Notes under the pieces: model-generated | The model's input: only the letters and a program-made list of their open reading frames with translations | Databases searched by the model: none | Told to the model about the DNA's origin: nothing | In this document: positions 7,101 through 53,064 of the stretch, one piece after another | Layout: every line of letters starts with the position of its first letter | Position numbering within the stretch: the stretch's first letter is position 1 | Assembly (NCBI GenBank): GCA_020740775.1 | Contig: JAHEWK010000007.1 | Location: 496,001-560,000, forward strand | Direction of reading: 5' to 3' | From: Ilyonectria destructans | Taxonomy: Eukaryota > Ascomycota > Sordariomycetes > Hypocreales > Nectriaceae | Length of the DNA stretch: 64,000 bases | Program-made: the position numbers and the translations under genes

Positions 7101-7902
7101 TTTATATTATATAAATTGTAGTTTATATATCTTTATTCTTATTAGTAAAGTAAATCTTATAGTTACCTTTTGGTATAGATTTATATTTTTAGTTGGTTTT
7201 AAGGCCTTAATACTTACTTTTAAAATAGTCTTTCTTTCTGTAATTTTAATACTGAACTTATAAATAGTCTTACTATATAGTATCTAATTCTATAGGTCTA
7301 ATTGCTATTCTATAGAAGGTATTTCCTTATTACTTCTTACTGCTATTAGAGTTATAGTTATTCTTTTTCTTCTAACTATTAGTATTTCCTTTTTTTCTTT
7401 TTTTTATATATTATTTAAATAGTTAGTTATTAATTATAATATACCAATAGATATATAAGTTAAAGTCTATAGGTAAATTAAGGATTTTATAAATCTTATC
7501 TTTTACTTTATCCTTTAATTCTTTATAAAAGCTATTAATTATATTTTTATCTATTTAGTTTAATTTAACAGTAAGATATTAGAACTTTATAAGATATTCT
7601 AATACTACTTTCTATTAGTAGAGTTTACAGATAGTAATAAGGGTATTATACTTTTTATTCTATTTTTTATAGGTATTATATAGAAGCTACTTATATACTT
7701 TAAAGCTATTAAATAGAGTAGTTATTTCCGGTTTTTATTCTTCTGGCACTTTCTCTATAAAGTCTTTAAGGATTAATACTATATTATTTTTAATATTACC
7801 TTTTAGAAGTTCTATAGTATATTATACCTTTAATTAATTATTACTAAAAGCAGTTAGATAGTATATATAGAATAACTTAAGTTTAATAAGATATCTAGCA
7901 AG

Positions 7903-8344
7903 TGTAACGGTCGTGTTCTCTGGACTGCCGTATACGTGGTATAGGGTAGGCGAGAGACGGGTTGCTGGTGGATAAACCGTAGGTTTATGTTAGCAGATCG
8001 GTTAGGGCGTCACTTACTGGGTAAATGTTACGTCTGGTAATAGTCAAGCACCGTGATGCGTAGCGAGTCAAGGTGATTGAGGTAACCAAGTTGTATTGAT
8101 AGCTGAGGTAGCTAAGAGTCTAGGAAAGTGCTAATGAACGTGTGTCTATATACTAGAATGATAGGTGAGGCTCACGGCGGTGAGCCTTGGAATCGCAGGT
8201 GAGCCGGAGAGGCTCACGCGTGAGCCGTAGAGGCTCACGGGTGAGTCCTTTAGTACGGCGTGAGCCGCAGTGAGGTGTATTTGATTGGGGGAAATTTGTG
8301 GGGTGCACGTGACGCCAGGCGTCTACGCGGCACGGGTCGTAACA
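7903..8344 (-). repeat. 3' LTR of Gypsy-A copy 1
   Basis: 442 bp, starting tgtaacgg and ending cgtaaca on the plus strand. It is identical to the 15,916-16,357 LTR except at offset 149 (C at 8052, A at 16,065). It shares the C with the 5' LTR of copy 2. Confidence 0.95.
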
Positions 8345-8457
8345 CGATGTCTCCCCTCCGTTGGTCCTTGTCCCCAATGCCAGCTACCAGGCCTGTTTCA
8401 AATTTCCTTCGTGCGTTCGCACTTAGTCCTGTATTCCCCTCATGGTTTGCTGACGAC

Positions 8458-9051
8458 ATGTCTACAGCTAAATCCACGAGAAACCGAAAAGCGCAGGCAG
8501 TCTTGATTGCTACTACGGGTTTCGTCGTCATGCCTTGTTCCTACTGTTCGCCGCGGAACTTGAAGTGCGTAATGAAGGAGGGCCACTCGAAGTGTGCCGA
8601 GTGCACGCGTCGTGGTCGCCCTTGCGACGGTCAGGGCATCTCCCTGGTGGCAGGTGAGGCTGTTCCGAGTTGTCCTGGGGTTTTGTTCGTTCTGATTTGT
8701 GGTGTAGCGGATCGTCTGGCGCTCGAAAAACAGCGTCTGGAAGCTGCCGAGGAGGCTACCGAGGAGGAACTGATCCAGCTACAACAACAACTGAACGAGC
8801 GTCTTTCTCGTTTGATGCGACTTCGTCGCCAGAAGCGACAGTTGGTCGAGAAGGGTACTCAGATGTTAAATCGTGGTCTCGCGTCCATGGACGAGTTGGA
8901 CGAGACCGAACGGTTAGAGTCGGAGGCGGTGGTTTCTGCGCAGTCCGTCCTGGTGACGGACCTTATTGACTGGAACGCCGTAGGTTCTTCGTTTGACTTC
9001 TCGTCTGGCGTTATTGGTGAAGGTTCTTCGGAAGGCGTTGCGCATGGTTGA
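8458..9051 (+). CDS. Antisense Zn2Cys6-like coiled-coil protein of Gypsy-A copy 1
   Basis: This gene is encoded opposite to gag-pol, between the 3' LTR and the pol stop; the two genes are tail to tail, 4 bp apart. I model join(8458..8653, 8708..9051), 179 aa: a 54-bp intron with GTGAGG donor, CTGAT branch-like site and TAG acceptor. The intron is a multiple of three without stops, so the frame is also open unspliced. The start was chosen as the ATG upstream of the MPCSYC motif; ATGs at 8531, 8349 and 8260 are alternatives. Cysteines 27, 30, 37, 46, 49 and 56 form a CX2CX6CX8CX2CX6C binuclear-zinc-like module, followed by a heptad-rich helix (about 65-120) and an acidic tail. Proteins of this shape occur widely near fungal Gypsy elements. 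Nuclear DNA binding is inferred; the function is unknown. Confidence 0.75.
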   Translation: MSTAKSTRNRKAQAVLIATTGFVVMPCSYCSPRNLKCVMKEGHSKCAECTRRGRPCDGQGISLVAGEAVPSCPGVLFVLICGVADRLALEKQRLEAAEEATEEELIQLQQQLNERLSRLMRLRRQKRQLVEKGTQMLNRGLASMDELDETERLESEAVVSAQSVLVTDLIDWNAVGSSFDFSSGVIGEGSSEGVAHG

Positions 9052-9055
9052 GGTC

Positions 9056-12000
9056 CTAGAATCTGTCCCAATGCATATTTCCTGGGGTACTTCTTCGTTT
9101 GAGGAAGTCCTTTAGTTTGGCTTGACAATGCGTGAGGTGTTCGTAGGGTTCCCATGTATCTTCTGAGGGGTCGCAGTCTTCCCATCTCACAAGATATTTC
9201 GTTTTGTTGTTTTCTCTTTTCATGTCGAGGATTGTTTTGACCGTGAATTCCTGGTCATTCTCGACTTCCGTTTCTTGATTGTTGTCCCATGTTTTGACGT
9301 GAATGGTGTCTGCTGCTGATTCGAGTAATGAAATGTGAACGATTGGATGGAGCTTGACCTTTGGTGGTAAGTCCAGTTTGTAGTTGTTTTCTGAGATTTT
9401 TTCCAAAATTTTGTAAGGTCCGATGAATTTGAAGTCCAATTTGTTGTTCGGCCTTTTTGTCTTGATGTTTTTTGTTGCGAGGTAAACCATGTCTCCTCTC
9501 TGGAAGATTGGTCCTTTCAATCTTTTCCTGTCGTAATATTTTTTCATTTGTTTTCTGACGAACTCCAGTTCCGTCTTCATTTCTTCGTGTAGCTGTCGTA
9601 GCTGGTCGGTGTTGAGGATTGCCTTAGCGTTCAAGGGTCCTTCTCGTGATGATCTGTAGGCGTCGGGGGTGAATCCGAAGTTGGCGTAAGCTGGTGTGAG
9701 CTTCGTTGTTCCTGAGGTGGATGTGTTGTAGGCCAGTTGCGCCGTAGGTAGCTTCTGGACCCAGTTGTCTTGCTCATAGTTGACGTAGCACCGTAGGTAC
9801 TGTTCGACTATTTGGTTGAGTCTTTCCGTTTGTCCATCCACTTGTGGTCTCCAAGCTGTCGTGAGCTTGTGGTTCAATCCCATTTGGGCCATCAGTCCTT
9901 GCCAGAACTTGGATGCGAATGTTGTTCCTCTGTCGGAGACAATCTCCATTGGCAATCCGTGTATGCTGACGATGTTTCTTAAGAATACATAAGAAAGTTG
10001 TTCTGCGTCGGTAGACTCTTGGTAGGGTAGGAAGTATGAGAACTTCGTAAGCCTATCCACGATGACGAATATGCTGTCGTAGAGTACTCCGGTTGTCGGG
10101 TCTTCAGATAGCGGGAGCTTGGTGATGTGGTCCATGGTGATGGATTCCCAAGGCCGTTGTGCTACTGGTAGTGGTTGTAACTGTCCATAAGGCTTGTGTC
10201 GTGGTGATTTTGACTTTTTGCACAAATCACATCCTTTGATGGTGTCTGAGACGGCTTTCTTCATTCGGGGGAATGAGTATGTTGTCCTGAGCCTCTCAAG
10301 GGTTCCGTTGATACCCTGGTGTCCGTGTACGGGATGTTCATGAACGTCCTGTACTAGTTGTTGTTGCAGTTCTTCGGGAACCTGCAATCGTTCCGTTCGT
10401 TCTTCCTCAGGTAGTGCGTCGTTGTACCCCTGGATTTCTTTTAGTAGTGGGTTGTCTGGTTCCACCGTGTGTGTCGCTGCGAGCGTTCTTCTGTCGAGCT
10501 CATCGACGAATCGTACTTTCTTCGCCGGTTCTGGGGGCTGTTGGGGTCCCATTTCTCTTTCTTCACAGATGTCGCATCGTCCAAAGTCTGCTGGGTTGGT
10601 GATGAATCTCCAATGAAACCTAGTGTGTGCTTGGTTGAGTGTGAGTCCTTGTTTCTGGTAGTCCTTTATGCGTTCCTGGCCGAATTCAGGCATGCATTCT
10701 GGGGGTATGAAGGCTCGTTTCTCGTGGGTAGGTATTCCATGCTGGTAGTCATACTCGTGGGGGTGGATGGCGTCGTTGTTATTCTCGTGACGATGGTACC
10801 GTCGTATCTTGTTTCGCCATTCTTCGTTTGGGGTTTCTAGCAGGTCTTCGTGTGCTATTCCGAGTTTCTTGTTGCACTCTGGGCATGCTGTCCGTGGGTA
10901 GTCGTCGTTTTTGGGTATCATGTAGTTGCGATGGAATCTTTCGTGGGCTTGGCTTTTTGTGAGCCCCTTGCTTTGGTAGCATTCCATTCTGTCCTTCAGA
11001 AAACTAGGTACTAGTCTCCGAGGTATGAATACTTGTTTGTGGTACGTTGGTATCCCACAGTCGTAGTCGAATTCGTTAGGAAACACTTCATCGTTGTTGT
11101 CGTAGAATGAGTGTTCCTTGCGGATCTTCGTCTGCCATTTCTTGCTGGGCATTTCGTTCATGTCGTGCCATTTTTCCTTGTACTTGTGGATGTTGGCGAT
11201 GTATCTCTGTTTGAGATGTCCTTCCGGGGTCAGCTCAAGGAGTTGTTCGTTTTCCTTAGTGATGCCGGTGTCGAAGTCGGGTCGTCGGCTGATGGCGTCT
11301 GCTCTGCCATTTTCCGATCCTTTCTTGTGGATGATGACATAGTCAAATTCCGATAGGTATTCCGCGTAGCGAAGTTGCCTGCCACTGAGCTCTTGAGTGG
11401 TTGCAAAGTGTGAGATGTTCTTGTGGTCGGTGTAGACCTTGATCTTATGCTTGCTCCCTAAGAGGTAGTGTCGGAATTCTTTGAATGAGTTGACTATTGC
11501 GAGGAATTCTTTGTCGTAGATGGGGTAGTTGAGCTCCGCTCCGTGGAGTTTGTGCGAGTAGAAGGCGATTGGGTGCAACTTCCCGTTGATGTCTCTCTGT
11601 CCTATTTGGGATCCCAGACCAAAATTAGAGGAGTCTGTCTCCAGCTCAACTTCTTTGTCGGGGTCGAACATGACTAAGACTGGTTCGCTGAGAATTGCCT
11701 TTTTGATGTCGTTAAAAGCCTTTTGCGCCTTGGTGTCCCATCTGAAATCCACTCCTTTCTTCGTGAGTTCTGTGAGGGCGTGTCCGATACTTCCGAAATC
11801 GCGAATGAACTTTCGGTAGTAGTTGGCGAATCCCAGGAAGCTCTGTACTTCCTTGACGTTTTCGGGTTTCGGCCAATCTTTGACAGCTTCGATTTTCTTG
11901 CGATCCATGCGGATCTCATTTGGACGGATGGTGTGTCCAAGGAAGTCCACTTCGTCCGTGTGGAACTTGCTCTTCTCCGGTTCAACGAGGAGGTTCGCGT

Positions 12001-13345
12001 CCTGTAGTTTCTTGAGTACCGCGTGGACGTGTTCCGTGTGTTCTTCTTCCGTGTCGGAGAAGATGAGGATGTCGTCAAGGTAACATACAACGAAGACGTC
12101 GAGGTGTTCCCGTAGCACATTGGTGATCATCCGTTGGAAGGTCGCCGGTGCGTTGGTGAGTCCAAAGGGCATAACTAGGTATTCGAAAAGTCCGTATTTC
12201 GTGCGGAAAGCAGTCTTCCATTCGTCTCCTGGTTTGATGCGGATGAGGTTGTAAGCTCCTTTGAGGTCGAGGGCCGTGAACCACTTTTTGCCATGCAGTC
12301 GATCCTTCAGTTCGTTGATGAGTGGCAATGGTGTTCGGTCCTTGATGGTGATGTCGTTGAGCTGTCGGTAATCCACAACTAATCGCAGTTTTCCGTTTTT
12401 CTTTGGGACGAACATGACTGGGTATCCTGCGGAGGACTTCGATATCCTGATGAATCCCTTTTTCAACATGTCTTCGAGGTATTCTTTCAACGTATGGAGT
12501 TGAACTTCGTTGAGGTTGTAAATTTTGTAGAACTTGGCTGTAGTCCCGTCTTTCAGCACTATCTCATGGTCCCATTGACCGTGCTGTGGTAGGCCTGTTT
12601 CCGTTTCTTCGGCAAACAGCTTCTCGTAGATTCGATAAGCAAGGGGTACGTTCTTGAGTCTGTCGTCTGCCTCCTTTGCTTTCTTCATTTCTTTCAGTTC
12701 TTCGTCGAGCTTTGTGAATTGTGCTCGTACTCGTGCGATGGTGCGGCGTGTCTTGTGTGTGTGGGCGTTGCGGTGTTTGTGTCTGGTGCCTCGGGGTGGC
12801 GAAGTATCTGTCGTGTCGTCGCGCGTTGCTTCGCTGGTGCCGTTGCCAGTCGAAGTTTGAGATCTCGTGTCGTCGTCTGAATCCTGTTCATAGGAGGAAT
12901 GATCGTCGACATCGTCGAAGGTCATTTGGCCAGTCCTCCAATTGATCAGTGGGTTCACTCGTTGCAGCCATGGATAGCCTAGAACCAAATCGTGTTGTGC
13001 CGAGGGAATGATATCAAAAGAGATACCTTCGTTGCGTTCGTTCACAAAAACTTTGAGGTGATCAATCTCCCTGGTGATGCGTCCGTTGTCGTAACTGAAA
13101 CTCGTTCCTTCGAGGTTCTGCACTCGGTACGGGTTCGATTTGTTCCTCCATGGTAGCTCCAACTCGTTCACCACTCTCGGGTGAAGGTAGTTGAGTTCTG
13201 CACCGCTGTCTACCAGCGCGGTGTACCAGCGTCCCTTGATTCGTACCTGGATTTCCAAGCAATCCGTTCGTGTGCTTCCTGTAGCACGTAGAGCTCTTAC
13301 TGGGAGTTCCGCTTCTCCTAGCTCTTGGCCCATCTGTTGCTCCAT
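9056..13345 (-). CDS. pol: Gypsy-A copy 1 pol polyprotein
   Basis: 1429 aa, identical by eye to the copy 2 pol. It carries out reverse transcription and integration of the element. Domains in order: aspartic protease (DSGAE, D46); reverse transcriptase with YLDD at 422-425; RNase H; a tandem pair of about 95-residue Cys modules (about 727-930); integrase HHCC zinc region (from about 1001) and DDE core (MDHI, VSDRG, GQTERLNQ); C-terminal chromodomain (about 1373-1418, YLVRWEDCDPSEDTWEP), which in chromoviruses directs insertion to chromatin marks. The annotated ATG overlaps the gag TAA (TAATG), but the frame is also open upstream as far as the A-AAA-AAC heptamer, so the N-terminus may be made by -1 frameshifting instead. 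Confidence 0.95.
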   Translation of the reverse strand: MEQQMGQELGEAELPVRALRATGSTRTDCLEIQVRIKGRWYTALVDSGAELNYLHPRVVNELELPWRNKSNPYRVQNLEGTSFSYDNGRITREIDHLKVFVNERNEGISFDIIPSAQHDLVLGYPWLQRVNPLINWRTGQMTFDDVDDHSSYEQDSDDDTRSQTSTGNGTSEATRDDTTDTSPPRGTRHKHRNAHTHKTRRTIARVRAQFTKLDEELKEMKKAKEADDRLKNVPLAYRIYEKLFAEETETGLPQHGQWDHEIVLKDGTTAKFYKIYNLNEVQLHTLKEYLEDMLKKGFIRISKSSAGYPVMFVPKKNGKLRLVVDYRQLNDITIKDRTPLPLINELKDRLHGKKWFTALDLKGAYNLIRIKPGDEWKTAFRTKYGLFEYLVMPFGLTNAPATFQRMITNVLREHLDVFVVCYLDDILIFSDTEEEHTEHVHAVLKKLQDANLLVEPEKSKFHTDEVDFLGHTIRPNEIRMDRKKIEAVKDWPKPENVKEVQSFLGFANYYRKFIRDFGSIGHALTELTKKGVDFRWDTKAQKAFNDIKKAILSEPVLVMFDPDKEVELETDSSNFGLGSQIGQRDINGKLHPIAFYSHKLHGAELNYPIYDKEFLAIVNSFKEFRHYLLGSKHKIKVYTDHKNISHFATTQELSGRQLRYAEYLSEFDYVIIHKKGSENGRADAISRRPDFDTGITKENEQLLELTPEGHLKQRYIANIHKYKEKWHDMNEMPSKKWQTKIRKEHSFYDNNDEVFPNEFDYDCGIPTYHKQVFIPRRLVPSFLKDRMECYQSKGLTKSQAHERFHRNYMIPKNDDYPRTACPECNKKLGIAHEDLLETPNEEWRNKIRRYHRHENNNDAIHPHEYDYQHGIPTHEKRAFIPPECMPEFGQERIKDYQKQGLTLNQAHTRFHWRFITNPADFGRCDICEEREMGPQQPPEPAKKVRFVDELDRRTLAATHTVEPDNPLLKEIQGYNDALPEEERTERLQVPEELQQQLVQDVHEHPVHGHQGINGTLERLRTTYSFPRMKKAVSDTIKGCDLCKKSKSPRHKPYGQLQPLPVAQRPWESITMDHITKLPLSEDPTTGVLYDSIFVIVDRLTKFSYFLPYQESTDAEQLSYVFLRNIVSIHGLPMEIVSDRGTTFASKFWQGLMAQMGLNHKLTTAWRPQVDGQTERLNQIVEQYLRCYVNYEQDNWVQKLPTAQLAYNTSTSGTTKLTPAYANFGFTPDAYRSSREGPLNAKAILNTDQLRQLHEEMKTELEFVRKQMKKYYDRKRLKGPIFQRGDMVYLATKNIKTKRPNNKLDFKFIGPYKILEKISENNYKLDLPPKVKLHPIVHISLLESAADTIHVKTWDNNQETEVENDQEFTVKTILDMKRENNKTKYLVRWEDCDPSEDTWEPYEHLTHCQAKLKDFLKRRSTPGNMHWDRF

Positions 13346-15849
13346 TACAGAGGGCGAGTGTGGTTTTTTGTCTGTGTTCGAACCACCTCATACCATTCTC
13401 GGTCTTCGGCCTGTCCGCCGGTTCTTCGTGGAAAGTTGAATCCATCTTCGTGCATTCTGCGCATTCGTTCGTAGATGGTCCTTTTTTCTTGGCTGTGTTC
13501 TGCGCAATCTCTGTTGCTGCAATCCATTGCAAATGTTTCTTCGCAAACGTCGTTGGGCATGGGGACAGGTGTGTGTTTTTTCTTTGTTCTTCGTGCATGG
13601 AGAGAACTTTTCTTTGTCTTGTGTTCCTCCTTTATTTCCTGTCTGCTTGACGTTGCGGTAGTTTCGTTTCGTTGGTCGGGTGTAGGTTTTTCTTCCCTGG
13701 TCATCCCGAGCCAGTTTTCTATTTCCTTTCGCTGAGTGTCGTCGTCGGATGATCCGTCGTGTCCGGATTCTCCTGGTTGGAAGTATTTTCGTCCTTGCGG
13801 GAAATGTCTTCGTTCTTCCCGTGCTTGGTGCCAAAGATGTACCTTGGTTTTCATGTGGATTCGGCATTCCTGGTGTTGGCAATCCTGAGGGTCCTGTGAT
13901 CCTCTTACGCACTGTTGCGGGAATCTGGTGATTTTGGCCTCTAGGATTGTGACGCGGTACTTCGGGTAACCATTGGTGTTTTCGTAGTACTCCGTGTCGT
14001 TCTTCATGTGTGGTTGAGTGATGGGGATTCCTGGTAGTCTCAGGGGGTAACAGTTGTGAGTCCATTTGTCCTTCAAGTGGTGGTGGCATCGTGGGTAGTA
14101 GCACGAGATCCATGAGATCTGGTCGTGTCCTTCCACACTGGGGTGGAGAATAGGGTTGTCCCTGAACTCTCCTCTGGGTTCCACCGTGCAGTCTCTTGCT
14201 TCATATCTTGTCATTGCATGAAGGTAGATGGGTTCATGTTGTTTGGCGTTTTGTTGTTCCCTCATGAGTTGTTGGTGCATTGCTCCCTTGTTTTCCCATT
14301 GTCGGTTGCCTTGCTCATCGAGCGTGGCTTTGTCCCACCATGGCTTTTCTGTTGCCGATTGGCTTGTTTCTTCGGGGGTGCTGGGTACGCGTTCTTCTGC
14401 GTAGGGGTCCAGTCTTTCTTCGTCGCTGGGGTCAGGGTATTCGTTCCTGATGTCATAGTCGTCCAGCTGTCTGTCGGGGATGTCGTTCTGGGTGTCCGGT
14501 ACTTCCAGTGTTCCTCTTCGATAGGTTTCTGGCTGTTTCTCCCGTCGTACCATGGCAATGGTCCTAGGCCTGACTGCCAGTGGTTGAATGGTCGGGGGTT
14601 CCGGCACTGGTGTCCACTCCTCCGGTTTCCTCCTCTGGTTGAGTTTCGAGGTAGGTTCCTCCGGGTGGGGTGCTTCTGCTTCTTCTTTGGACAAGTATCG
14701 CTCTAGGCTGGGTAGGTACACTGGGCAATTCGTGCCAGTGTGGTCGTATGCGCCTCGTGTCATGGCGATGGTTCGCGTTCGTACCGCTGTTTCGGGTTCC
14801 TCCTGCCTCTGGATGGTGTTCAGTGACCGTTGTCCCGTGGGCACAGGTTGGAATTGTCGTTCCCGTTTGGGCTTGCGGCATTCTCGTGCGAAGTGTCCCT
14901 TTTTGTCGCAGTTGTAGCATGTGACATCCTTCTTGTCTCGAGGCTGCCTCTGTGCAGCTCCGAGTTCCATGGGTCCGGCGTGCGTTCCCCAAGAGGTGTT
15001 TCCGCGAGAGTTGCCCTGTCGGCCACCTCTCTGTCCTCCACCGTTCCCTCGCTGGTTGGGATAGTAGGGATTGTACGGAGTGTCTCGACCTCTCTGGCGT
15101 GTCGCAGCCTTCTCCCTGCGTCTTTCGTACTGTCGTTCGTCGATTTTGACGGCCATGGTGATGTATTCCGTGAGGGTGTCGGGTCGGTCAGCTTTGTAGA
15201 GCTCGTCTTTGACCTCGTCCTTCAGTCCCTGGTAGAATATTTCCATGAGTACCTCATCCTCCCAGTCCAACTTGGAGGCGACTCGTCGGAGTGCGATGGC
15301 GTAGGCGGCAGCAGATCGGATTTGTTTGAGCGTGTGAATTTTTGCGGCTGCCTGCCTTTCTTCGTTGACCATTCCGAACGTGTCTTTGAGGGCTACTTCG
15401 AAGTTCTCCCAATCCGCGAATAGGTTGACCGTGTCTTGGTCCTGGTCGGCCTCGTCGTTGTCGAGGAAATCTTTGAGGATGGGTTCGAACCAGTTCTTGG
15501 CGTCACCGGACATCAGATTGCTTGTGAACAGCAGTCGTGATTCCGCGGATGCCAACCGTCGTGGGTACCATTGGAAGTGTCCTTTCATCCTGGTGATGAA
15601 GGGTACGACGTCGCTGGGCGTCCCGTCGAATTTCTCTGGTAGCGGTGGTTTCATCACTTCCCCTGGGTCGCGTTCGTTGTTTCCGGCGACCGGTGCTGGT
15701 GCGTTCTGCACTTGCTGCTGCAGAGTGCGGACCAGGTTGCGCAGCTGTTCAACTTCGGCAGCCATGTTGGCATTGTTTGCCGGAGCCGTGTAAGCTGGTG
15801 GCGCAGGTGCGTTGCTTGGGGTAGCGGGAGTTCGGTTGGTTCCGGACAT
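13345..15849 (-). CDS. gag: Gypsy-A copy 1 gag polyprotein
   Basis: 834 aa, unusually long for a fungal Gypsy gag. Residues 30-60 form a short coiled coil, residues 65-245 are the retrotransposon gag (capsid-like) region, and 250-300 is Arg/Gly/Asn-rich. A CCHC zinc knuckle occupies C311, C314, H319 and C324. The long tail (about 340-834) is Pro/Glu/Arg-rich with repeated T(R)TIAM motifs and later Cys/His clusters. The gag stop TAA shares its last A with the pol ATG. An in-frame A-AAA-AAC heptamer lies 15 nt before the stop. It forms the particle and binds RNA, by analogy with the family. Intact, without RIP stops. Confidence 0.93.
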   Translation of the reverse strand: MSGTNRTPATPSNAPAPPAYTAPANNANMAAEVEQLRNLVRTLQQQVQNAPAPVAGNNERDPGEVMKPPLPEKFDGTPSDVVPFITRMKGHFQWYPRRLASAESRLLFTSNLMSGDAKNWFEPILKDFLDNDEADQDQDTVNLFADWENFEVALKDTFGMVNEERQAAAKIHTLKQIRSAAAYAIALRRVASKLDWEDEVLMEIFYQGLKDEVKDELYKADRPDTLTEYITMAVKIDERQYERRREKAATRQRGRDTPYNPYYPNQRGNGGGQRGGRQGNSRGNTSWGTHAGPMELGAAQRQPRDKKDVTCYNCDKKGHFARECRKPKRERQFQPVPTGQRSLNTIQRQEEPETAVRTRTIAMTRGAYDHTGTNCPVYLPSLERYLSKEEAEAPHPEEPTSKLNQRRKPEEWTPVPEPPTIQPLAVRPRTIAMVRREKQPETYRRGTLEVPDTQNDIPDRQLDDYDIRNEYPDPSDEERLDPYAEERVPSTPEETSQSATEKPWWDKATLDEQGNRQWENKGAMHQQLMREQQNAKQHEPIYLHAMTRYEARDCTVEPRGEFRDNPILHPSVEGHDQISWISCYYPRCHHHLKDKWTHNCYPLRLPGIPITQPHMKNDTEYYENTNGYPKYRVTILEAKITRFPQQCVRGSQDPQDCQHQECRIHMKTKVHLWHQAREERRHFPQGRKYFQPGESGHDGSSDDDTQRKEIENWLGMTREEKPTPDQRNETTATSSRQEIKEEHKTKKSSLHARRTKKKHTPVPMPNDVCEETFAMDCSNRDCAEHSQEKRTIYERMRRMHEDGFNFPRRTGGQAEDREWYEVVRTQTKNHTRPL
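13363..13369 (-). promoter_or_regulatory. -1 frameshift heptamer A-AAA-AAC (gag/pol), copy 1
   Basis: The minus strand reads AAAAAAC with the gag zero frame placed as A AAA AAC. A -1 slip enters the pol frame with no stop before the pol ATG. The heptamer is kept in the RIPed copy (36,851-36,857). Confidence 0.6.
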
Positions 15850-42735: not shown

Positions 42736-45240
42736 ATGTCCGGAACCAACCGAACTCCCGCTACCCCAAGCAACGCACCTGCGCCACCAGCTTACACGGC
42801 TCCGGCAAACAATGCCAACATGGCTGCCGAAGTTGAACAGCTGCGCAACCTGGTCCGCACTCTGCAGCAGCAAGTGCAGAACGCACCAGCACCGGTCGCC
42901 GGAAACAACGAACGCGACCCAGGGGAAGTGATGAAACCACCGCTACCAGAGAAATTCGACGGGACGCCCAGCGACGTCGTACCCTTCATCACCAGGATGA
43001 AAGGACACTTCCAATGGTACCCACGACGGTTGGCATCCGCGGAATCACGACTGCTGTTCACAAGCAATCTGATGTCCGGTGACGCCAAGAACTGGTTCGA
43101 ACCCATCCTCAAAGATTTCCTCGACAACGACGAGGCCGACCAGGACCAAGACACGGTCAACCTATTCGCGGATTGGGAGAACTTCGAAGTAGCCCTCAAA
43201 GACACGTTCGGAATGGTCAACGAAGAAAGGCAGGCAGCCGCAAAAATTCACACGCTCAAACAAATCCGATCTGCTGCCGCCTACGCCATCGCACTCCGAC
43301 GAGTCGCCTCCAAGTTGGACTGGGAGGATGAGGTACTCATGGAAATATTCTACCAGGGACTGAAGGACGAGGTCAAAGACGAGCTCTACAAAGCTGACCG
43401 ACCCGACACCCTCACGGAATACATCACCATGGCCGTCAAAATCGACGAACGACAGTACGAAAGACGCAGGGAGAAGGCTGCGACACGCCAGAGAGGTCGA
43501 GACACTCCGTACAATCCCTACTATCCCAACCAGCGAGGGAACGGTGGAGGACAGAGAGGTGGCCGACAGGGCAACTCTCGCGGAAACACCTCTTGGGGAA
43601 CGCACGCCGGACCCATGGAACTCGGAGCTGCACAGAGGCAGCCTCGAGACAAGAAGGATGTCACATGCTACAACTGCGACAAAAAGGGACACTTCGCACG
43701 AGAATGCCGCAAGCCCAAACGGGAACGACAATTCCAACCTGTGCCCACGGGACAACGGTCACTGAACACCATCCAGAGGCAGGAGGAACCCGAAACAGCG
43801 GTACGAACGCGAACCATCGCCATGACACGAGGCGCATACGACCACACTGGCACGAATTGCCCAGTGTACCTACCCAGCCTAGAGCGATACTTGTCCAAAG
43901 AAGAAGCAGAAGCACCCCACCCGGAGGAACCTACCTCGAAACTCAACCAGAGGAGGAAACCGGAGGAGTGGACACCAGTGCCGGAACCCCCGACCATTCA
44001 ACCACTGGCAGTCAGGCCTAGGACCATTGCCATGGTACGACGGGAGAAACAGCCAGAAACCTATCGAAGAGGAACACTGGAAGTACCGGACACCCAGAAC
44101 GACATCCCCGACAGACAGCTGGACGACTATGACATCAGGAACGAATACCCTGACCCCAGCGACGAAGAAAGACTGGACCCCTACGCAGAAGAACGCGTAC
44201 CCAGCACCCCCGAAGAAACAAGCCAATCGGCAACAGAAAAGCCATGGTGGGACAAAGCCACGCTCGATGAGCAAGGCAACCGACAATGGGAAAACAAGGG
44301 AGCAATGCACCAACAACTCATGAGGGAACAACAAAACGCCAAACAACATGAACCCATCTACCTTCATGCAATGACAAGATATGAAGCAAGAGACTGCACG
44401 GTGGAACCCAGAGGAGAGTTCAGGGACAACCCTATTCTCCACCCCAGTGTGGAAGGACACGACCAGATCTCATGGATCTCGTGCTACTACCCACGATGCC
44501 ACCACCACTTGAAGGACAAATGGACTCACAACTGTTACCCCCTGAGACTACCAGGAATCCCCATCACTCAACCACACATGAAGAACGACACGGAGTACTA
44601 CGAAAACACCAATGGTTACCCGAAGTACCGCGTCACAATCCTAGAGGCCAAAATCACCAGATTCCCGCAACAGTGCGTAAGAGGATCACAGGACCCTCAG
44701 GATTGCCAACACCAGGAATGCCGAATCCACATGAAAACCAAGGTACATCTTTGGCACCAAGCACGGGAAGAACGAAGACATTTCCCGCAAGGACGAAAAT
44801 ACTTCCAACCAGGAGAATCCGGACACGACGGATCATCCGACGACGACACTCAGCGAAAGGAAATAGAAAACTGGCTCGGGATGACCAGGGAAGAAAAACC
44901 TACACCCGACCAACGAAACGAAACTACCGCAACGTCAAGCAGACAGGAAATAAAGGAGGAACACAAGACAAAGAAAAGTTCTCTCCATGCACGAAGAACA
45001 AAGAAAAAACACACACCTGTCCCCATGCCCAACGACGTTTGCGAAGAAACATTTGCAATGGATTGCAGCAACAGAGATTGCGCAGAACACAGCCAAGAAA
45101 AAAGGACCATCTACGAACGAATGCGCAGAATGCACGAAGATGGATTCAACTTTCCACGAAGAACCGGCGGACAGGCCGAAGACCGAGAATGGTATGAGGT
45201 GGTTCGAACACAGACAAAAAACCACACTCGCCCTCTGTAA
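42736..45240 (+). CDS. gag: Gypsy-A copy 2 gag polyprotein
   Basis: 834 aa, the same as the copy 1 product. The ATG follows a short leader of 66 nt after the LTR. Zinc knuckle C311-C314-H319-C324. Extra Cys/His-rich patches occur in the tail, around a SCYYPRCHHH motif (about 592-601) and a CQHQEC motif (about 659-664), which are not part of standard gag and may bind metal. The final codons contain the A-AAA-AAC heptamer, and the TAA overlaps the pol ATG. Confidence 0.93.
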   Translation: MSGTNRTPATPSNAPAPPAYTAPANNANMAAEVEQLRNLVRTLQQQVQNAPAPVAGNNERDPGEVMKPPLPEKFDGTPSDVVPFITRMKGHFQWYPRRLASAESRLLFTSNLMSGDAKNWFEPILKDFLDNDEADQDQDTVNLFADWENFEVALKDTFGMVNEERQAAAKIHTLKQIRSAAAYAIALRRVASKLDWEDEVLMEIFYQGLKDEVKDELYKADRPDTLTEYITMAVKIDERQYERRREKAATRQRGRDTPYNPYYPNQRGNGGGQRGGRQGNSRGNTSWGTHAGPMELGAAQRQPRDKKDVTCYNCDKKGHFARECRKPKRERQFQPVPTGQRSLNTIQRQEEPETAVRTRTIAMTRGAYDHTGTNCPVYLPSLERYLSKEEAEAPHPEEPTSKLNQRRKPEEWTPVPEPPTIQPLAVRPRTIAMVRREKQPETYRRGTLEVPDTQNDIPDRQLDDYDIRNEYPDPSDEERLDPYAEERVPSTPEETSQSATEKPWWDKATLDEQGNRQWENKGAMHQQLMREQQNAKQHEPIYLHAMTRYEARDCTVEPRGEFRDNPILHPSVEGHDQISWISCYYPRCHHHLKDKWTHNCYPLRLPGIPITQPHMKNDTEYYENTNGYPKYRVTILEAKITRFPQQCVRGSQDPQDCQHQECRIHMKTKVHLWHQAREERRHFPQGRKYFQPGESGHDGSSDDDTQRKEIENWLGMTREEKPTPDQRNETTATSSRQEIKEEHKTKKSSLHARRTKKKHTPVPMPNDVCEETFAMDCSNRDCAEHSQEKRTIYERMRRMHEDGFNFPRRTGGQAEDREWYEVVRTQTKNHTRPL
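45216..45222 (+). promoter_or_regulatory. -1 frameshift heptamer A-AAA-AAC (gag/pol), copy 2
   Basis: Zero-frame codons are AAA (45,217-45,219) and AAC (45,220-45,222), preceded by the A of ACA. After a -1 slip the codons CCA CAC TCG CCC TCT GTA lead straight into the pol ATG codon. Confidence 0.6.
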
Positions 45241-48200
45241 TGGAGCAACAGATGGGCCAAGAGCTAGGAGAAGCGGAACTCCCAGTAAGAGCTCTACGTG
45301 CTACAGGAAGCACACGAACGGATTGCTTGGAAATCCAGGTACGAATCAAGGGACGCTGGTACACCGCGCTGGTAGACAGCGGTGCAGAACTCAACTACCT
45401 TCACCCGAGAGTGGTGAACGAGTTGGAGCTACCATGGAGGAACAAATCGAACCCGTACCGAGTGCAGAACCTCGAAGGAACGAGTTTCAGTTACGACAAC
45501 GGACGCATCACCAGGGAGATTGATCACCTCAAAGTTTTTGTGAACGAACGCAACGAAGGTATCTCTTTTGATATCATTCCCTCGGCACAACACGATTTGG
45601 TTCTAGGCTATCCATGGCTGCAACGAGTGAACCCACTGATCAATTGGAGGACTGGCCAAATGACCTTCGACGATGTCGACGATCATTCCTCCTATGAACA
45701 GGATTCAGACGACGACACGAGATCTCAAACTTCGACTGGCAACGGCACCAGCGAAGCAACGCGCGACGACACGACAGATACTTCGCCACCCCGAGGCACC
45801 AGACACAAACACCGCAACGCCCACACACACAAGACACGCCGCACCATCGCACGAGTACGAGCACAATTCACAAAGCTCGACGAAGAACTGAAAGAAATGA
45901 AGAAAGCAAAGGAGGCAGACGACAGACTCAAGAACGTACCCCTTGCTTATCGAATCTACGAGAAGCTGTTTGCCGAAGAAACGGAAACAGGCCTACCACA
46001 GCACGGTCAATGGGACCATGAGATAGTGCTGAAAGACGGGACTACAGCCAAGTTCTACAAAATTTACAACCTCAACGAAGTTCAACTCCATACGTTGAAA
46101 GAATACCTCGAAGACATGTTGAAAAAGGGATTCATCAGGATATCGAAGTCCTCCGCAGGATACCCAGTCATGTTCGTCCCAAAGAAAAACGGAAAACTGC
46201 GATTAGTTGTGGATTACCGACAGCTCAACGACATCACCATCAAGGACCGAACACCATTGCCACTCATCAACGAACTGAAGGATCGACTGCATGGCAAAAA
46301 GTGGTTCACGGCCCTCGACCTCAAAGGAGCTTACAACCTCATCCGCATCAAACCAGGAGACGAATGGAAGACTGCTTTCCGCACGAAATACGGACTTTTC
46401 GAATACCTAGTTATGCCCTTTGGACTCACCAACGCACCGGCGACCTTCCAACGGATGATCACCAATGTGCTACGGGAACACCTCGACGTCTTCGTTGTAT
46501 GTTACCTTGACGACATCCTCATCTTCTCCGACACGGAAGAAGAACACACGGAACACGTCCACGCGGTACTCAAGAAACTACAGGACGCGAACCTCCTCGT
46601 TGAACCGGAGAAGAGCAAGTTCCACACGGACGAAGTGGACTTCCTTGGACACACCATCCGTCCAAATGAGATCCGCATGGATCGCAAGAAAATCGAAGCT
46701 GTCAAAGATTGGCCGAAACCCGAAAACGTCAAGGAAGTACAGAGCTTCCTGGGATTCGCCAACTACTACCGAAAGTTCATTCGCGATTTCGGAAGTATCG
46801 GACACGCCCTCACAGAACTCACGAAGAAAGGAGTGGATTTCAGATGGGACACCAAGGCGCAAAAGGCTTTTAACGACATCAAAAAGGCAATTCTCAGCGA
46901 ACCAGTCTTAGTCATGTTCGACCCCGACAAAGAAGTTGAGCTGGAGACAGACTCCTCTAATTTTGGTCTGGGATCCCAAATAGGACAGAGAGACATCAAC
47001 GGGAAGTTGCACCCAATCGCCTTCTACTCGCACAAACTCCACGGAGCGGAGCTCAACTACCCCATCTACGACAAAGAATTCCTCGCAATAGTCAACTCAT
47101 TCAAAGAATTCCGACACTACCTCTTAGGGAGCAAGCATAAGATCAAGGTCTACACCGACCACAAGAACATCTCACACTTTGCAACCACTCAAGAGCTCAG
47201 TGGCAGGCAACTTCGCTACGCGGAATACCTATCGGAATTTGACTATGTCATCATCCACAAGAAAGGATCGGAAAATGGCAGAGCAGACGCCATCAGCCGA
47301 CGACCCGACTTCGACACCGGCATCACTAAGGAAAACGAACAACTCCTTGAGCTGACCCCGGAAGGACATCTCAAACAGAGATACATCGCCAACATCCACA
47401 AGTACAAGGAAAAATGGCACGACATGAACGAAATGCCCAGCAAGAAATGGCAGACGAAGATCCGCAAGGAACACTCATTCTACGACAACAACGATGAAGT
47501 GTTTCCTAACGAATTCGACTACGACTGTGGGATACCAACGTACCACAAACAAGTATTCATACCTCGGAGACTAGTACCTAGTTTTCTGAAGGACAGAATG
47601 GAATGCTACCAAAGCAAGGGGCTCACAAAAAGCCAAGCCCACGAAAGATTCCATCGCAACTACATGATACCCAAAAACGACGACTACCCACGGACAGCAT
47701 GCCCAGAGTGCAACAAGAAACTCGGAATAGCACACGAAGACCTGCTAGAAACCCCAAACGAAGAATGGCGAAACAAGATACGACGGTACCATCGTCACGA
47801 GAATAACAACGACGCCATCCACCCCCACGAGTATGACTACCAGCATGGAATACCTACCCACGAGAAACGAGCCTTCATACCCCCAGAATGCATGCCTGAA
47901 TTCGGCCAGGAACGCATAAAGGACTACCAGAAACAAGGACTCACACTCAACCAAGCACACACTAGGTTTCATTGGAGATTCATCACCAACCCAGCAGACT
48001 TTGGACGATGCGACATCTGTGAAGAAAGAGAAATGGGACCCCAACAGCCCCCAGAACCGGCGAAGAAAGTACGATTCGTCGATGAGCTCGACAGAAGAAC
48101 GCTCGCAGCGACACACACGGTGGAACCAGACAACCCACTACTAAAAGAAATCCAGGGGTACAACGACGCACTACCTGAGGAAGAACGAACGGAACGATTG

Positions 48201-49529
48201 CAGGTTCCCGAAGAACTGCAACAACAACTAGTACAGGACGTTCATGAACATCCCGTACACGGACACCAGGGTATCAACGGAACCCTTGAGAGGCTCAGGA
48301 CAACATACTCATTCCCCCGAATGAAGAAAGCCGTCTCAGACACCATCAAAGGATGTGATTTGTGCAAAAAGTCAAAATCACCACGACACAAGCCTTATGG
48401 ACAGTTACAACCACTACCAGTAGCACAACGGCCTTGGGAATCCATCACCATGGACCACATCACCAAGCTCCCGCTATCTGAAGACCCGACAACCGGAGTA
48501 CTCTACGACAGCATATTCGTCATCGTGGATAGGCTTACGAAGTTCTCATACTTCCTACCCTACCAAGAGTCTACCGACGCAGAACAACTTTCTTATGTAT
48601 TCTTAAGAAACATCGTCAGCATACACGGATTGCCAATGGAGATTGTCTCCGACAGAGGAACAACATTCGCATCCAAGTTCTGGCAAGGACTGATGGCCCA
48701 AATGGGATTGAACCACAAGCTCACGACAGCTTGGAGACCACAAGTGGATGGACAAACGGAAAGACTCAACCAAATAGTCGAACAGTACCTACGGTGCTAC
48801 GTCAACTATGAGCAAGACAACTGGGTCCAGAAGCTACCTACGGCGCAACTGGCCTACAACACATCCACCTCAGGAACAACGAAGCTCACACCAGCTTACG
48901 CCAACTTCGGATTCACCCCCGACGCCTACAGATCATCACGAGAAGGACCCTTGAACGCTAAGGCAATCCTCAACACCGACCAGCTACGACAGCTACACGA
49001 AGAAATGAAGACGGAACTGGAGTTCGTCAGAAAACAAATGAAAAAATATTACGACAGGAAAAGATTGAAAGGACCAATCTTCCAGAGAGGAGACATGGTT
49101 TACCTCGCAACAAAAAACATCAAGACAAAAAGGCCGAACAACAAATTGGACTTCAAATTCATCGGACCTTACAAAATTTTGGAAAAAATCTCAGAAAACA
49201 ACTACAAACTGGACTTACCACCAAAGGTCAAGCTCCATCCAATCGTTCACATTTCATTACTCGAATCAGCAGCAGACACCATTCACGTCAAAACATGGGA
49301 CAACAATCAAGAAACGGAAGTCGAGAATGACCAGGAATTCACGGTCAAAACAATCCTCGACATGAAAAGAGAAAACAACAAAACGAAATATCTTGTGAGA
49401 TGGGAAGACTGCGACCCCTCAGAAGATACATGGGAACCCTACGAACACCTCACGCATTGTCAAGCCAAACTAAAGGACTTCCTCAAACGAAGAAGTACCC
49501 CAGGAAATATGCATTGGGACAGATTCTAG
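45240..49529 (+). CDS. pol: Gypsy-A copy 2 pol polyprotein
   Basis: 1429 aa: protease (D46), RT (YLDD 422-425), RNase H (TDSS, DKEF, TDHKN and NGRADA blocks), duplicated Cys module (repeat 1 about 727-825 ending in CPEC; repeat 2 about 836-930 ending in CDIC), integrase HHCC (HPVHGH...CDLC) and DDE core, GPY-like region (IGPYKI), chromodomain at the C-terminus. All catalytic residues I can check are present, so the protein should be active. It lies in the -1 frame relative to gag, with one nucleotide of overlap. Tail to tail with the antisense gene. Confidence 0.95.
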   Translation: MEQQMGQELGEAELPVRALRATGSTRTDCLEIQVRIKGRWYTALVDSGAELNYLHPRVVNELELPWRNKSNPYRVQNLEGTSFSYDNGRITREIDHLKVFVNERNEGISFDIIPSAQHDLVLGYPWLQRVNPLINWRTGQMTFDDVDDHSSYEQDSDDDTRSQTSTGNGTSEATRDDTTDTSPPRGTRHKHRNAHTHKTRRTIARVRAQFTKLDEELKEMKKAKEADDRLKNVPLAYRIYEKLFAEETETGLPQHGQWDHEIVLKDGTTAKFYKIYNLNEVQLHTLKEYLEDMLKKGFIRISKSSAGYPVMFVPKKNGKLRLVVDYRQLNDITIKDRTPLPLINELKDRLHGKKWFTALDLKGAYNLIRIKPGDEWKTAFRTKYGLFEYLVMPFGLTNAPATFQRMITNVLREHLDVFVVCYLDDILIFSDTEEEHTEHVHAVLKKLQDANLLVEPEKSKFHTDEVDFLGHTIRPNEIRMDRKKIEAVKDWPKPENVKEVQSFLGFANYYRKFIRDFGSIGHALTELTKKGVDFRWDTKAQKAFNDIKKAILSEPVLVMFDPDKEVELETDSSNFGLGSQIGQRDINGKLHPIAFYSHKLHGAELNYPIYDKEFLAIVNSFKEFRHYLLGSKHKIKVYTDHKNISHFATTQELSGRQLRYAEYLSEFDYVIIHKKGSENGRADAISRRPDFDTGITKENEQLLELTPEGHLKQRYIANIHKYKEKWHDMNEMPSKKWQTKIRKEHSFYDNNDEVFPNEFDYDCGIPTYHKQVFIPRRLVPSFLKDRMECYQSKGLTKSQAHERFHRNYMIPKNDDYPRTACPECNKKLGIAHEDLLETPNEEWRNKIRRYHRHENNNDAIHPHEYDYQHGIPTHEKRAFIPPECMPEFGQERIKDYQKQGLTLNQAHTRFHWRFITNPADFGRCDICEEREMGPQQPPEPAKKVRFVDELDRRTLAATHTVEPDNPLLKEIQGYNDALPEEERTERLQVPEELQQQLVQDVHEHPVHGHQGINGTLERLRTTYSFPRMKKAVSDTIKGCDLCKKSKSPRHKPYGQLQPLPVAQRPWESITMDHITKLPLSEDPTTGVLYDSIFVIVDRLTKFSYFLPYQESTDAEQLSYVFLRNIVSIHGLPMEIVSDRGTTFASKFWQGLMAQMGLNHKLTTAWRPQVDGQTERLNQIVEQYLRCYVNYEQDNWVQKLPTAQLAYNTSTSGTTKLTPAYANFGFTPDAYRSSREGPLNAKAILNTDQLRQLHEEMKTELEFVRKQMKKYYDRKRLKGPIFQRGDMVYLATKNIKTKRPNNKLDFKFIGPYKILEKISENNYKLDLPPKVKLHPIVHISLLESAADTIHVKTWDNNQETEVENDQEFTVKTILDMKRENNKTKYLVRWEDCDPSEDTWEPYEHLTHCQAKLKDFLKRRSTPGNMHWDRF

Positions 49530-49533
49530 GACC

Positions 49534-50127
49534 TCAACCATGCGCAACGCCTTCCGAAGAACCTTCACCAATAACGCCAGACGAGAAGTCAAACGAAGAA
49601 CCTACGGCGTTCCAGTCAATAAGGTCCGTCACCAGGACGGACTGCGCAGAAACCACCGCCTCCGACTCTAACCGTTCGGTCTCGTCCAACTCGTCCATGG
49701 ACGCGAGACCACGATTTAACATCTGAGTACCCTTCTCGACCAACTGTCGCTTCTGGCGACGAAGTCGCATCAAACGAGAAAGACGCTCGTTCAGTTGTTG
49801 TTGTAGCTGGATCAGTTCCTCCTCGGTAGCCTCCTCGGCAGCTTCCAGACGCTGTTTTTCGAGCGCCAGACGATCCGCTACACCACAAATCAGAACGAAC
49901 AAAACCCCAGGACAACTCGGAACAGCCTCACCTGCCACCAGGGAGATGCCCTGACCGTCGCAAGGGCGACCACGACGCGTGCACTCGGCACACTTCGAGT
50001 GGCCCTCCTTCATTACGCACTTCAAGTTCCGCGGCGAACAGTAGGAACAAGGCATGACGACGAAACCCGTAGTAGCAATCAAGACTGCCTGCGCTTTTCG
50101 GTTTCTCGTGGATTTAGCTGTAGACAT
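49534..50127 (-). CDS. Antisense Zn2Cys6-like coiled-coil protein of Gypsy-A copy 2
   Basis: Mirror of the copy 1 gene: complement(join(49534..49877, 49932..50127)), 179 aa, 54-bp intron, identical protein. The one coding-region-proximal difference between copies (C50,207) lies upstream of the chosen start. Transcription would have to start in or near the 3' LTR on the opposite strand to gag-pol. The six-Cys module plus coiled coil suggests a dimeric DNA- or RNA-binding protein; whether it regulates the element or the host is unknown. Confidence 0.75.
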   Translation of the reverse strand: MSTAKSTRNRKAQAVLIATTGFVVMPCSYCSPRNLKCVMKEGHSKCAECTRRGRPCDGQGISLVAGEAVPSCPGVLFVLICGVADRLALEKQRLEAAEEATEEELIQLQQQLNERLSRLMRLRRQKRQLVEKGTQMLNRGLASMDELDETERLESEAVVSAQSVLVTDLIDWNAVGSSFDFSSGVIGEGSSEGVAHG

Positions 50128-50224
50128 GTCGTCAGCAAACCATGAGGGGAATACAGGACTAAGTGCGAACGCACGAAGGAAATTTGAAACAGGCCTGGTA
50201 GCTGGCCTTGGGGACAAGGACCAA

Positions 50225-50240
50225 CGGAGGGGAGACATCG
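50225..50240 (+). promoter_or_regulatory. Polypurine tract, copy 2
   Basis: A purine-rich run (cggaggggagacatcg) immediately precedes the 3' LTR at 50,241, the usual plus-strand primer position. Confidence 0.65.
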
Positions 50241-50682
50241 TGTTACGACCCGTGCCGCGTAGACGCCTGGCGTCACGTGCACCCCACAAATTTCCCCCAA
50301 TCAAATACACCTCACTGCGGCTCACGCCGTACTAAAGGACTCACCCGTGAGCCTCTACGGCTCACGCGTGAGCCTCTCCGGCTCACCTGCGATTCCAAGG
50401 CTCACCGCCGTGAGCCTCACCTATCATTCTAGTATATAGACACACGTTCATTAGCACTTTCCTAGACTCTTAGCTACCTCAGCTATCAATACAACTTGGT
50501 TACCTCAATCACCTTGACTCGCTACGCATCACTGTGCTTGACTATTACCAGACGTAACATTTACCCAGTAAGTGACGCCCTAACCGATCTGCTAACATAA
50601 ACCTACGGTTTATCCACCAGCAACCCGTCTCTCGCCTACCCTATACCACGTATACGGCAGTCCAGAGAACACGACCGTTACA
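50241..50682 (+). repeat. 3' LTR of Gypsy-A copy 2
   Basis: 442 bp; differs from the 5' LTR at 50,533 (T versus G at 42,520). It shares this base with the 5' LTR of copy 1. Confidence 0.95.
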
Positions 50683-53064
50683 CCAGGTTTACTATTATTT
50701 TTACTGCCTAAAGGGGAATAGTACTAATTTTTAGCGACAAAATTTATTCTTATCCTCGTTCTCGTCGCGAGCCGATCAGGGCCTAAGGCGCAGTAGTAAG
50801 GCTTCTAGTGTTAATGGGACTACAATAAGGGACTCAAGCGATATTCTCTAATAATGAAATAGGCTGTGATCATCGATGGACTATAATAATGAATTCTGAG
50901 GTTGGATGGGAAATTCACGATTACAGGCCGATACCATCTGGGAGCCGAAATAAACTTAACTTTAGGGTTAAAGATGGTCGTAGATTTGCTCCCTTAGGCG
51001 CTGAAAGCCCTGTCTAGCTCCGTAGAAGGAGGATTTCTGAAACCCAGCTCTATGATCAACAGGGGCTTAATTGGTTGCTCATGTTGCTATGGTGAAACAG
51101 GAGAATCCTTGCGTGCTTGACTGATTGATCAATGGCACAGAGGAGCTACGACCAGTATGACGCCAAGCGTTTGCGGAGATGCGGAGTGAAACCAAGGAAA
51201 CTCCTCTTCCGCTCAGCGTCCGGTTTTGTCCTGAACCTCAAGGGCGCGCACGGAGCCTAAGGTTTCATAATGGCTCCCATCTTTGGTTACCTTCTGTTTC
51301 GGAGGCCTCAATTAAGCGCGAGAGATTGGGCCGGTATCGCATTCAGGGGTCATCTTCAAACATCGGGACGTACCCTTCCGAGCTAGGATCTTCGGGATCT
51401 ACATCTCCCGGCCAGAACCTCAAAACCGACTTCTCCAGACCAGCCGTCGTCATCTTCCTCTATAAGACTAACCCTTAGGCCATCAATGGAAAGAGGTGAA
51501 ATCAAGAGCCTTGAAGATCAGACCGCGCTCATTACGTCTGACGGTTTTTGATAATATTTTAAGATCACAGCCTACTCGGCTACTCGGGCAGAGACTTTCG
51601 GCCGAAATGGACAGGGTTATTGAAACGTCCGCATAGCTAGAGATCCCCCCGTTTGATCTTCAACAGCCCAATGATGTTTCATCCCTGCTTTCATCAACCG
51701 GGGTTTGGAAAATCTGGTCAGAGTATAGGGTAGGAAGGAGTAAATTCATGTCGGCTGGCAAAAGTTGAACGCTCCACTCGAAAGCTCGGGTATTGTCGAA
51801 TATCACTGTTTAACAATTCACGCACATCTGCAACTTAATTGCACACTATTTTGACCTGTATGACATCTAATATTGGTGTAATCAAGGTGGTCTAGTCTAA
51901 ATTTCCATTCCCTTCTGCGTCACTCGCTAGCTGCGTGTAAAGAGCGGCGATAGACTTGGCTCAAAGCTAACGTCATGCTTAACTGCAGGCGCCCAGCCTC
52001 CATATCGACAAATCGCCTTGGCCATTGGAAACGAATAGCTTATTTTTGAATAGGCTCTAGCCGAGATGTGGATTGTTTGCTTAAATTAGCTGCAGTGAGC
52101 ATCTTGTGAGCATCACTCGGCATCACGCGACCACCTACTATAATTAGACAGAATCGATATCTCCAGGTTGCGCACTGCTGCTGCTAAGTGTTTTAAGCTT
52201 TTAAAGTTGACTGTTTTATCTTTCTCGCGTGGATTTTTCTTGCAGGGGGTCTCGGAGAATACGCGTAGACAGAGTGGTAGTGGTGACTACAGTGTGAGAC
52301 GAACCCCTGTTTCACCACTTCATCCCTTCCCCCGCCACCTGGTGATCCCGTCTGGTGTTTGGCAGTTGTTCTGGAACTGAGAATGACGAGGCCTATCGTT
52401 GAAATTTTGGTCGAATTGAAGAAATTTACGTGTTTGTTGTGATGGTTCTTTATTTTCTGGCACTTGTGTCTGTAGATGGGGTATTTTCTGTGGGCCGAGG
52501 AGGCCATGCCGGATCTCATTTAAGCTCGTGGGCACGACTCTTGGCCAGTTATCTCGACCAATTGCTATGAGACGTCAAGAACTAATAATAAAGACATTCT
52601 TGGCGTGTTGGGTTACGTTTGTGTCAAAATCGATGCTCATTCTGGGCATTGGGACTATTTTTGGTGGAGCCAAGCAATACGCCGTTTTGGAAGTCTTGGC
52701 TCTCTACCAACATTGCTCAGTGACGGCCTTGGCGATAGTTTCACTGAGTTTCCAGGGCGTGTAACGTCCCTGGGGACTGTCACAGCCAACACAGCGATGC
52801 GCCCAAGGCCCATTATTCTTAGCGATCTTAAACATTGGCACGGAGTACTACGACAATGTCTATAAAGCCTTTTTGACTTCCGGTGAAAACGTTTCTTCCT
52901 TCCTCTTCATCCACTTCAAGCACAATATTCACTTTGCATTTCAACCCATTTCTTCTCTTCTCTACTCTTCGCAGGTTCGAAGATTGTTTATTTCCGGTTA
53001 TTTTTAACCCCTTCGTCCTCTTCAACTTCCCAACACCTTATCCGTCGCAAGCCCTTCTCTCAAA
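50683..53064. other. Gene-poor interval at the edge of the repeat block
   Basis: Base composition returns to normal within a few tens of bases. Only short open frames (60-100 codons) without recognisable motifs, conserved codon pattern or introns are present. I see no RNA gene or repeat. The last 200 bp hold the promoter and leader of the 53,065 gene. Confidence 0.6.
52861..52867 (+). promoter_or_regulatory. TATA box of the secreted-protein gene
   Basis: TATAAAG about 200 bp before the ATG, followed by a CT-rich leader (about 52,890-52,975) of the kind common in highly expressed fungal genes. Confidence 0.4.

Follow-up and report, generated by a model that had tools for sequence, protein, structure and literature searches.

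Crosswise target duplications and hybrid long terminal repeats at two inverted Gypsy-A retrotransposons of Ilyonectria destructans

A 64,000-nt stretch of the Ilyonectria destructans genome (contig JAHEWK010000007.1, positions 496,001 to 560,000; hereafter the window) carries two intact, oppositely oriented copies of a long terminal repeat (LTR) retrotransposon, Gypsy-A, neither of which is flanked by a target duplication of its own. Was the 25,870-bp segment between them inverted by exchange between the two copies and, if so, did this happen in the organism or in the assembler? The initial annotation proposed the inversion and left biology, polymorphism in the culture and assembly artefact open. 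Here, the twin copies, their flanks and the other members of the family were compared in the whole genome (71.67 Mb, 74 contigs; C numbers refer to contigs and L numbers to loci, the window being C67:496001-560000). Its RNA polymerase III subunit RPC2, with Stylonectria norvegica (95%) as best named match and Fusarium at 94%, places the host in the Hypocreales near Nectriaceae; a transcription-factor fragment gave matches of 98% and, to a named species, 61%. The inversion is backed by target duplications, LTR variants and uninterrupted relatives of both insertion sites, and its cause is probably a real ectopic crossing-over and not misassembly. The phasing of LTR variants and the genome-wide pattern reported below go beyond the initial annotation.

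Twin copies with exchanged flanks and LTR variants

Copy 1 occupies positions 7903-16357 on the minus strand and copy 2 positions 42228-50682 on the plus strand. Each element proper is 8,455 bp long with LTRs of 442 bp, and the inverted arms (7902-16357 and 42228-50683) differ by 3 mismatches in 8,456 bp, which bears out their earlier description as near-identical. By domain content, Gypsy-A is a Ty3/Gypsy LTR retrotransposon of the chromovirus type. The pol open reading frame (ORF) of copy 1 (9056-13387, minus strand), open as it stands, has the Pfam order protease, reverse transcriptase, RNase H and integrase, followed by SH3_Tf2-1 and a chromodomain (PF00385, 2.3e-13, residues 1381-1431 of 1443), while the gag ORF (13345-15870, minus strand) includes Retrotrans_gag and a zinc knuckle. 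The LTRs begin with TG and end with CA, and a 5-bp target duplication accompanies 9 of the 15 full copies found in the genome. Among the best 120 of 6,603 protein matches (7,971 candidates scored), those with names include Fusarium and Metarhizium elements.

The 5 bp bordering copy 1 are, on the plus strand, GCAAG on the outer side (7898-7902) and CCTGG on the inner side (16358-16362); those bordering copy 2 are CTTGC on the inner side (42223-42227) and CCAGG on the outer side (50683-50687). As reported initially, they do not match within either copy and are complementary crosswise only. GCAAG and CTTGC would be the two halves of the duplication made by one insertion, X, and CCTGG and CCAGG those of a second insertion, Y. 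Neither GCAAG nor CCAGG borders any other of the 15 full copies compared. That the family makes 5-bp duplications had been read from a third copy in the window, older and altered by repeat-induced point mutation (RIP) (31397-39833, minus strand, ends read by eye from the sequence), and CTATA is indeed present on both of its sides (31392-31396 and 39834-39838).

A double 5-mer match would arise by chance in about 4e-6 of pairs given the base composition of the flanks, or in 2.7e-5 for random 5-mers of the AT-rich window DNA. Both estimates are too optimistic because target 5-mers recur. Gypsy-A targets are not random, since 2 of the 36 pairs formed by the nine clean copies have a common 5-mer (TATAC and TATAG), and squaring this rate raises the expectation to about 0.003 per pair. 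Crosswise duplications alone would thus be good but not overwhelming evidence, and LTR phasing and empty sites weigh more.

When the 15 near-identical full-length copies are aligned, they differ at 7 substituted positions, and L012 has in addition lost 63 bp. Sense positions 293 and 8306 are the same LTR position and exist as variant a (G) or b (T). Both LTRs are of the same variant in 12/15 copies, which is what retrotransposition predicts. The three mismatched copies are copy 1 (b...a), copy 2 (a...b) and L010 (a...b), all three without their own duplication, and none of the 9 copies with a duplication has hybrid LTRs. In copy 1, variant b is found in the 5′ LTR (15916-16357, minus strand; 16065 is A on the plus strand) and variant a in the 3′ LTR (7903-8344, minus strand; 8052 is C on the plus strand). 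When the exchange is undone, one b/b and one a/a element are obtained. A further site, 7980, is private to copy 1 and lies on its a side; private substitutions are scarce, with only two in the 15 full copies and one more in a split copy on C12.

Judged from the sequence, the assembly presents the post-exchange state, and the crossover is placed between sense positions 294 and 7979. For copy 1 the corresponding interval is 8379-16064, with diagnostic sites 8378 and 16065 on either side; for copy 2 it is 42521-50206, enclosed by diagnostic sites 42520 and 50207. Both intervals would equally delimit a mis-join. The 7.7-kb core between the diagnostic sites is identical in both arms. Because this core offers no diagnostic site, the locus alone cannot tell biology from assembler.

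Uninterrupted relatives of the two insertion sites

The four flanks of the twin copies were searched separately in the genome and also compared by BLAST with strict scoring for AT-rich DNA; in the genome search, 40 of 49 candidates were scored for the outer flank of copy 1 and 40 of 77 for the inner flank of copy 2, and counts of diverged copies are lower bounds. At the putative site X, the flanks are parts of a gag pseudogene of another element, Gypsy-B (7303-7902, minus strand, left of copy 1, and 41628-42227, plus strand, left of copy 2). The initial annotation had taken them for one split gene. Consistently, the two parts directly adjoin in 9/10 other Gypsy-B copies (at least 82% identical to 7303-7902, among the candidates scored). 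In the tenth relative, on C27, a diverged Gypsy-A match lies between them and they are separated by about 8.5 kb.

Inversion of 16,358-42,227 had been expected to restore both duplications and the gag frame. The duplications are restored, and the frames of the two gag parts agree in phase where the parts meet. Their best frames contain, respectively, 19 and 14 stops per 200 codons. Undoing the exchange would therefore restore gag phase and collinearity, and not an open gene.

At the putative site Y, the flank on the inner side of copy 1 and that on the outer side of copy 2 come together at C14:38393-38397, where their matches overlap by exactly 5 bp, CCAGG. These matches reach 68% across 205 bp and 83% across 105 bp. 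Of the few non-self matches of these flanks (2 and 3), this is the single locus matched by both, and the remaining ones (1 and 2) do not unite the two sides. The repeat at this site is represented by L038 (C14:38187-38497). Differences between the four flanks and their relatives are mostly transitions (40/44, 59/63, 14/18 and 12/17, the last over 60 bp compared).

Independently of the inversion, we noted that three Gypsy-A insertions seem to fall within about 45 bp at the same place of three Gypsy-B gag copies, suggesting a target preference: one in the window (42183-42227), one on C1 near 7353471 and one, old, at C27:261512-269979.

The locus combines inverted near-identical copies, exchanged duplications, hybrid elements and ancestral junctions that are uninterrupted elsewhere in the genome, as expected of a segment inverted between two Gypsy-A copies. 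The probable course of events is as follows. Element X, with variant a, would have inserted recently into the Gypsy-B gag within an old RIP-mutated repeat block, and element Y, with variant b, also recently, into another old repeat about 26 kb away and in the opposite orientation. Reciprocal crossing-over within the near-identical interiors (ectopic, i.e. non-allelic homologous recombination, NAHR) would then have inverted the 25,870 bp and produced two hybrid elements with swapped flanks and LTR variants. The inverted segment (16358-42227) has a GC content of 0.23, a TpA/ApT index of 1.49 and a (CpA+TpG)/(ApC+GpT) index of 0.33, which we take, by the usual cut-offs, to be typical of RIP. The same indices are 0.71 and 1.29 in the DNA to the right of copy 2 and 0.75 and 0.98 in copy 1, and the GC content of the Gypsy-A element is 0.51. 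Steering of new copies into AT-rich heterochromatin by the chromodomain integrase could account for close inverted pairs.

Rearranged copies across the family

Genome-wide scans for perfect LTR ends, which report no limit on candidates, found 36 starts and 35 ends without mismatch. With 40 of 47 candidates scored, a 401-bp interior probe detected 16 copies at 100% identity, the next match being at most 81%. Candidate readings of this gap are that RIP paused or that the copies stem from a recent burst and escaped it. In the genome search (40 of 122 candidates scored), the family was counted as 15 full copies, a single split copy and four lone LTRs; each lone LTR has a duplication of its own, and one is 97% identical. 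L028, a 90% LTR match, was not placed and stands outside the flank table. Nine of the full copies are flanked by a duplication of their own, four others make up two crosswise pairs, and the last two lack matching flanks as well as a partner. Same-contig inverted pairs that are 1.4 kb and 25.9 kb apart are swapped, and those 463 kb and 3.5 Mb apart are not swapped with each other. The 100-bp flanks of the full copies have a GC content of 0.12-0.40, but some wider flanks and lone LTRs lie in DNA of higher GC content (see below), so that these data no more than hint at a preference for AT-rich DNA.

The second crosswise pair is formed by L012 and L013 (C1:7343651-7361926, with L031-L033), two inverted copies with a 1,429-bp spacer and duplications CTAAT and TAGAG shared crosswise; the deletion of L012 sits in its 3′ LTR. 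The spacer matches Gypsy-B in one direction and both outer sides match it in the other, the left matches being short (64-220 bp). Inversion of this spacer would therefore restore collinearity with Gypsy-B.

The split copy lies on C12, where sense positions 1-2336 (5681796-5684131, L029) and 2382-8455 (5760712-5766785, L030) are found on opposite strands with break ends about 79 kb apart. TTGTA is present outside both halves. At the break, a 65-bp fragment of the element and 274 bp of unplaced filler were observed, scars that resemble end-joining. The orientation of the halves points to an inversion here too. Such a fragment and filler favour a real rearrangement, because misassembly driven by repeats does not readily make them.

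The two remaining full copies, L010 (C45:15426-23880, the third copy with hybrid LTRs) and L016 (C11:252948-261402), have neither their own duplication nor a swap partner among the 15 full copies. A swap between them, or of either with any other full copy, was ruled out by an all-against-all comparison of flanks. In the repeats that host them on the left, three relatives each run on alike past the joint (L050-L055), and the continuations of these relatives have no match to the right of L010 within 20 kb (C45) or to the right of L016 within 10 kb (C11). Simple insertion without duplication is unlikely for both, since these continuations were not found on the right within those distances. The joints look as deletion, or translocation with loss of one product, would leave them. 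The absence, among the 15 full copies, of a reciprocal product for L010 and L016 favours real exchange, because a mis-join would normally leave one.

Some further matches of these relatives were noted. A 556-bp part of L050 matches C45:13.6-14.2 kb, left of L010, and recurs in inverted orientation in the flank to the left of L016; stretches of 88-90 bp from L051 and L052 match, likewise inverted, left of L010; and 754 bp of L054 match only the first 756 bases of contig C45. As the right flank of L010 starts with CACTA, a nested insertion was also considered. The end expected of a CACTA-type element, TAGTG, was sought within 2 kb; its sole match is not beside a second AATAG, and this reading was rejected.

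Exchange in the organism or in the assembler

Taken together, these results lead us to infer that the exchange took place in the organism. Three observations produce this lean: the near-identical copies are complete and every end and interior detected has its counterpart, 9/13 of the other full copies have their own duplications, and three further copies (L010, L016 and the one on C12) are damaged. In this way the family-wide data shift the choice that the initial annotation had left open towards real exchange and do not settle it.

Several points weigh against real exchange. The traces at this locus would be no different if the assembler had erred at the 8.45-kb near-exact inverted repeat. 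Of the two close inverted pairs, both (2/2) are flipped, an outcome that random orientation gives 1 time in 4. Our scans would overlook a fragment at a contig end if it had neither LTR end nor the 401-bp probe sequence. Steering into heterochromatin, for its part, is contradicted by a GC content of 0.43-0.49 in the 10 kb on either side of L010 and L016 and by 2/4 lone LTRs that lie in DNA of GC 0.47-0.54.

Within real exchange, and overlapping it in probability, both orientations could coexist, the block flipping repeatedly. The arms are near-identical over 8.4 kb, which makes the exchange reversible in principle, and the flipped state of both close pairs would fit such behaviour; the LTR phases now present, in turn, need one exchange only. 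We regard coexistence as possible but doubtful. Equally tentative is a broader proposal, in which close inverted Gypsy-A pairs act as reversible inversion switches in RIP-silenced heterochromatin: integration into AT-rich DNA would keep making pairs, the orientation of transposable-element (TE) islands would be polymorphic within the strain, and flips would occur within the lifetime of single elements.

Alternatively, the culture could have the original order throughout, the wrong arms having been joined across the 8.45-kb inverted repeats. With 3 differences between the arms and 7.7 kb identical, shorter reads could not phase them, and both close inverted pairs are affected. There is also a precedent in Candida albicans, where the reference orientation of one locus may be wrong, only the non-reference orientation having been amplified across the inverted repeat, according to the passages on that locus (PMC6591007). 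Most of the other full copies nevertheless kept their own duplications, and in the LTR-end scans and with the 401-bp interior probe the LTR ends and 16 interiors of near-identical copies all paired within contigs. Among the copies that these three probes can reveal, none was unresolved or ended a contig. Mis-joining, moreover, poorly explains the unpaired L010 and L016 and the broken copy on C12. We thus consider an assembly artefact unlikely.

Finally, insertion without duplications or with their later loss, the crosswise match being a coincidence or due to gene conversion, is hardly conceivable: L010 and L016 do lack a duplication and a partner and identical target 5-mers do recur, but the double match remains rare even at the recurrence observed, LTR variants swap in the same sense, both empty sites are present elsewhere in the genome, and gene conversion does not exchange flanks.

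Real ectopic exchange, our preferred explanation, has parallels in other systems. Hughes and Coffin reportedly showed in 2005 that LTR relationships and target duplications reveal exchange between human endogenous retroviruses (HERVs), in primate proviruses and over millions of years. Gypsy-A, unlike these proviruses, represents a very recent fungal burst.

For Saccharomyces cerevisiae, it is stated that a crossover between inverted Ty1 elements on one chromosome arm inverts the segment between them; hybrid Ty1 elements, comparable to the Gypsy-A twins, were mapped there by single-nucleotide polymorphisms (PMC9879454). In the parts of that study describing these events, double-strand breaks were induced and rearrangements confirmed by Nanopore sequencing, whereas the Gypsy-A event is natural and read from an assembly; the four Ty1 isolates described there in detail include no same-arm event between inverted repeats (PMC9879454). 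The C. albicans passages likewise describe inversions that span about 4 to 103 kb, break within long inverted repeats and are ascribed to NAHR (PMC6591007). There, the repeats are shorter (about 1.7 kb at a 32-kb inversion), the organism is diploid and two cases were validated by PCR; target-duplication evidence, present for Gypsy-A, does not figure in these passages (PMC6591007). The 2Rj inversion of Anopheles gambiae, as described in the relevant passages, also has long near-identical repeats at both breakpoints and a putative target duplication, inverse complementary, flanking different copies (PMC1952172). One of the two expected duplications is noted there, while for Gypsy-A both are seen together with LTR phasing and empty sites (PMC1952172). 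As far as these sources go, a TE-mediated inversion that exchanges duplications and leaves hybrid elements is of a known kind (PMC9879454, PMC1952172, PMC6591007).

What is unusual is to find all these marks together in so young a burst and recurring in the same genome. If the exchange is real, 6 of the 15 full copies of a very young family have already exchanged or lost their flanks and a 16th is broken, providing a natural, dateable measure of the rate of retrotransposon-driven rearrangement in fungal repeat blocks. If it is an artefact, the case would serve as a warning, and crosswise duplications with swapped LTR variants would offer an inexpensive way to detect misoriented assembly segments without reads.

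With respect to its surroundings, copy 2 marks the border between RIPed DNA and DNA of normal GC content, and the right side (from 50683 on) contains MFS-like, Fungal_trans_2 and Zn-cluster ORFs.

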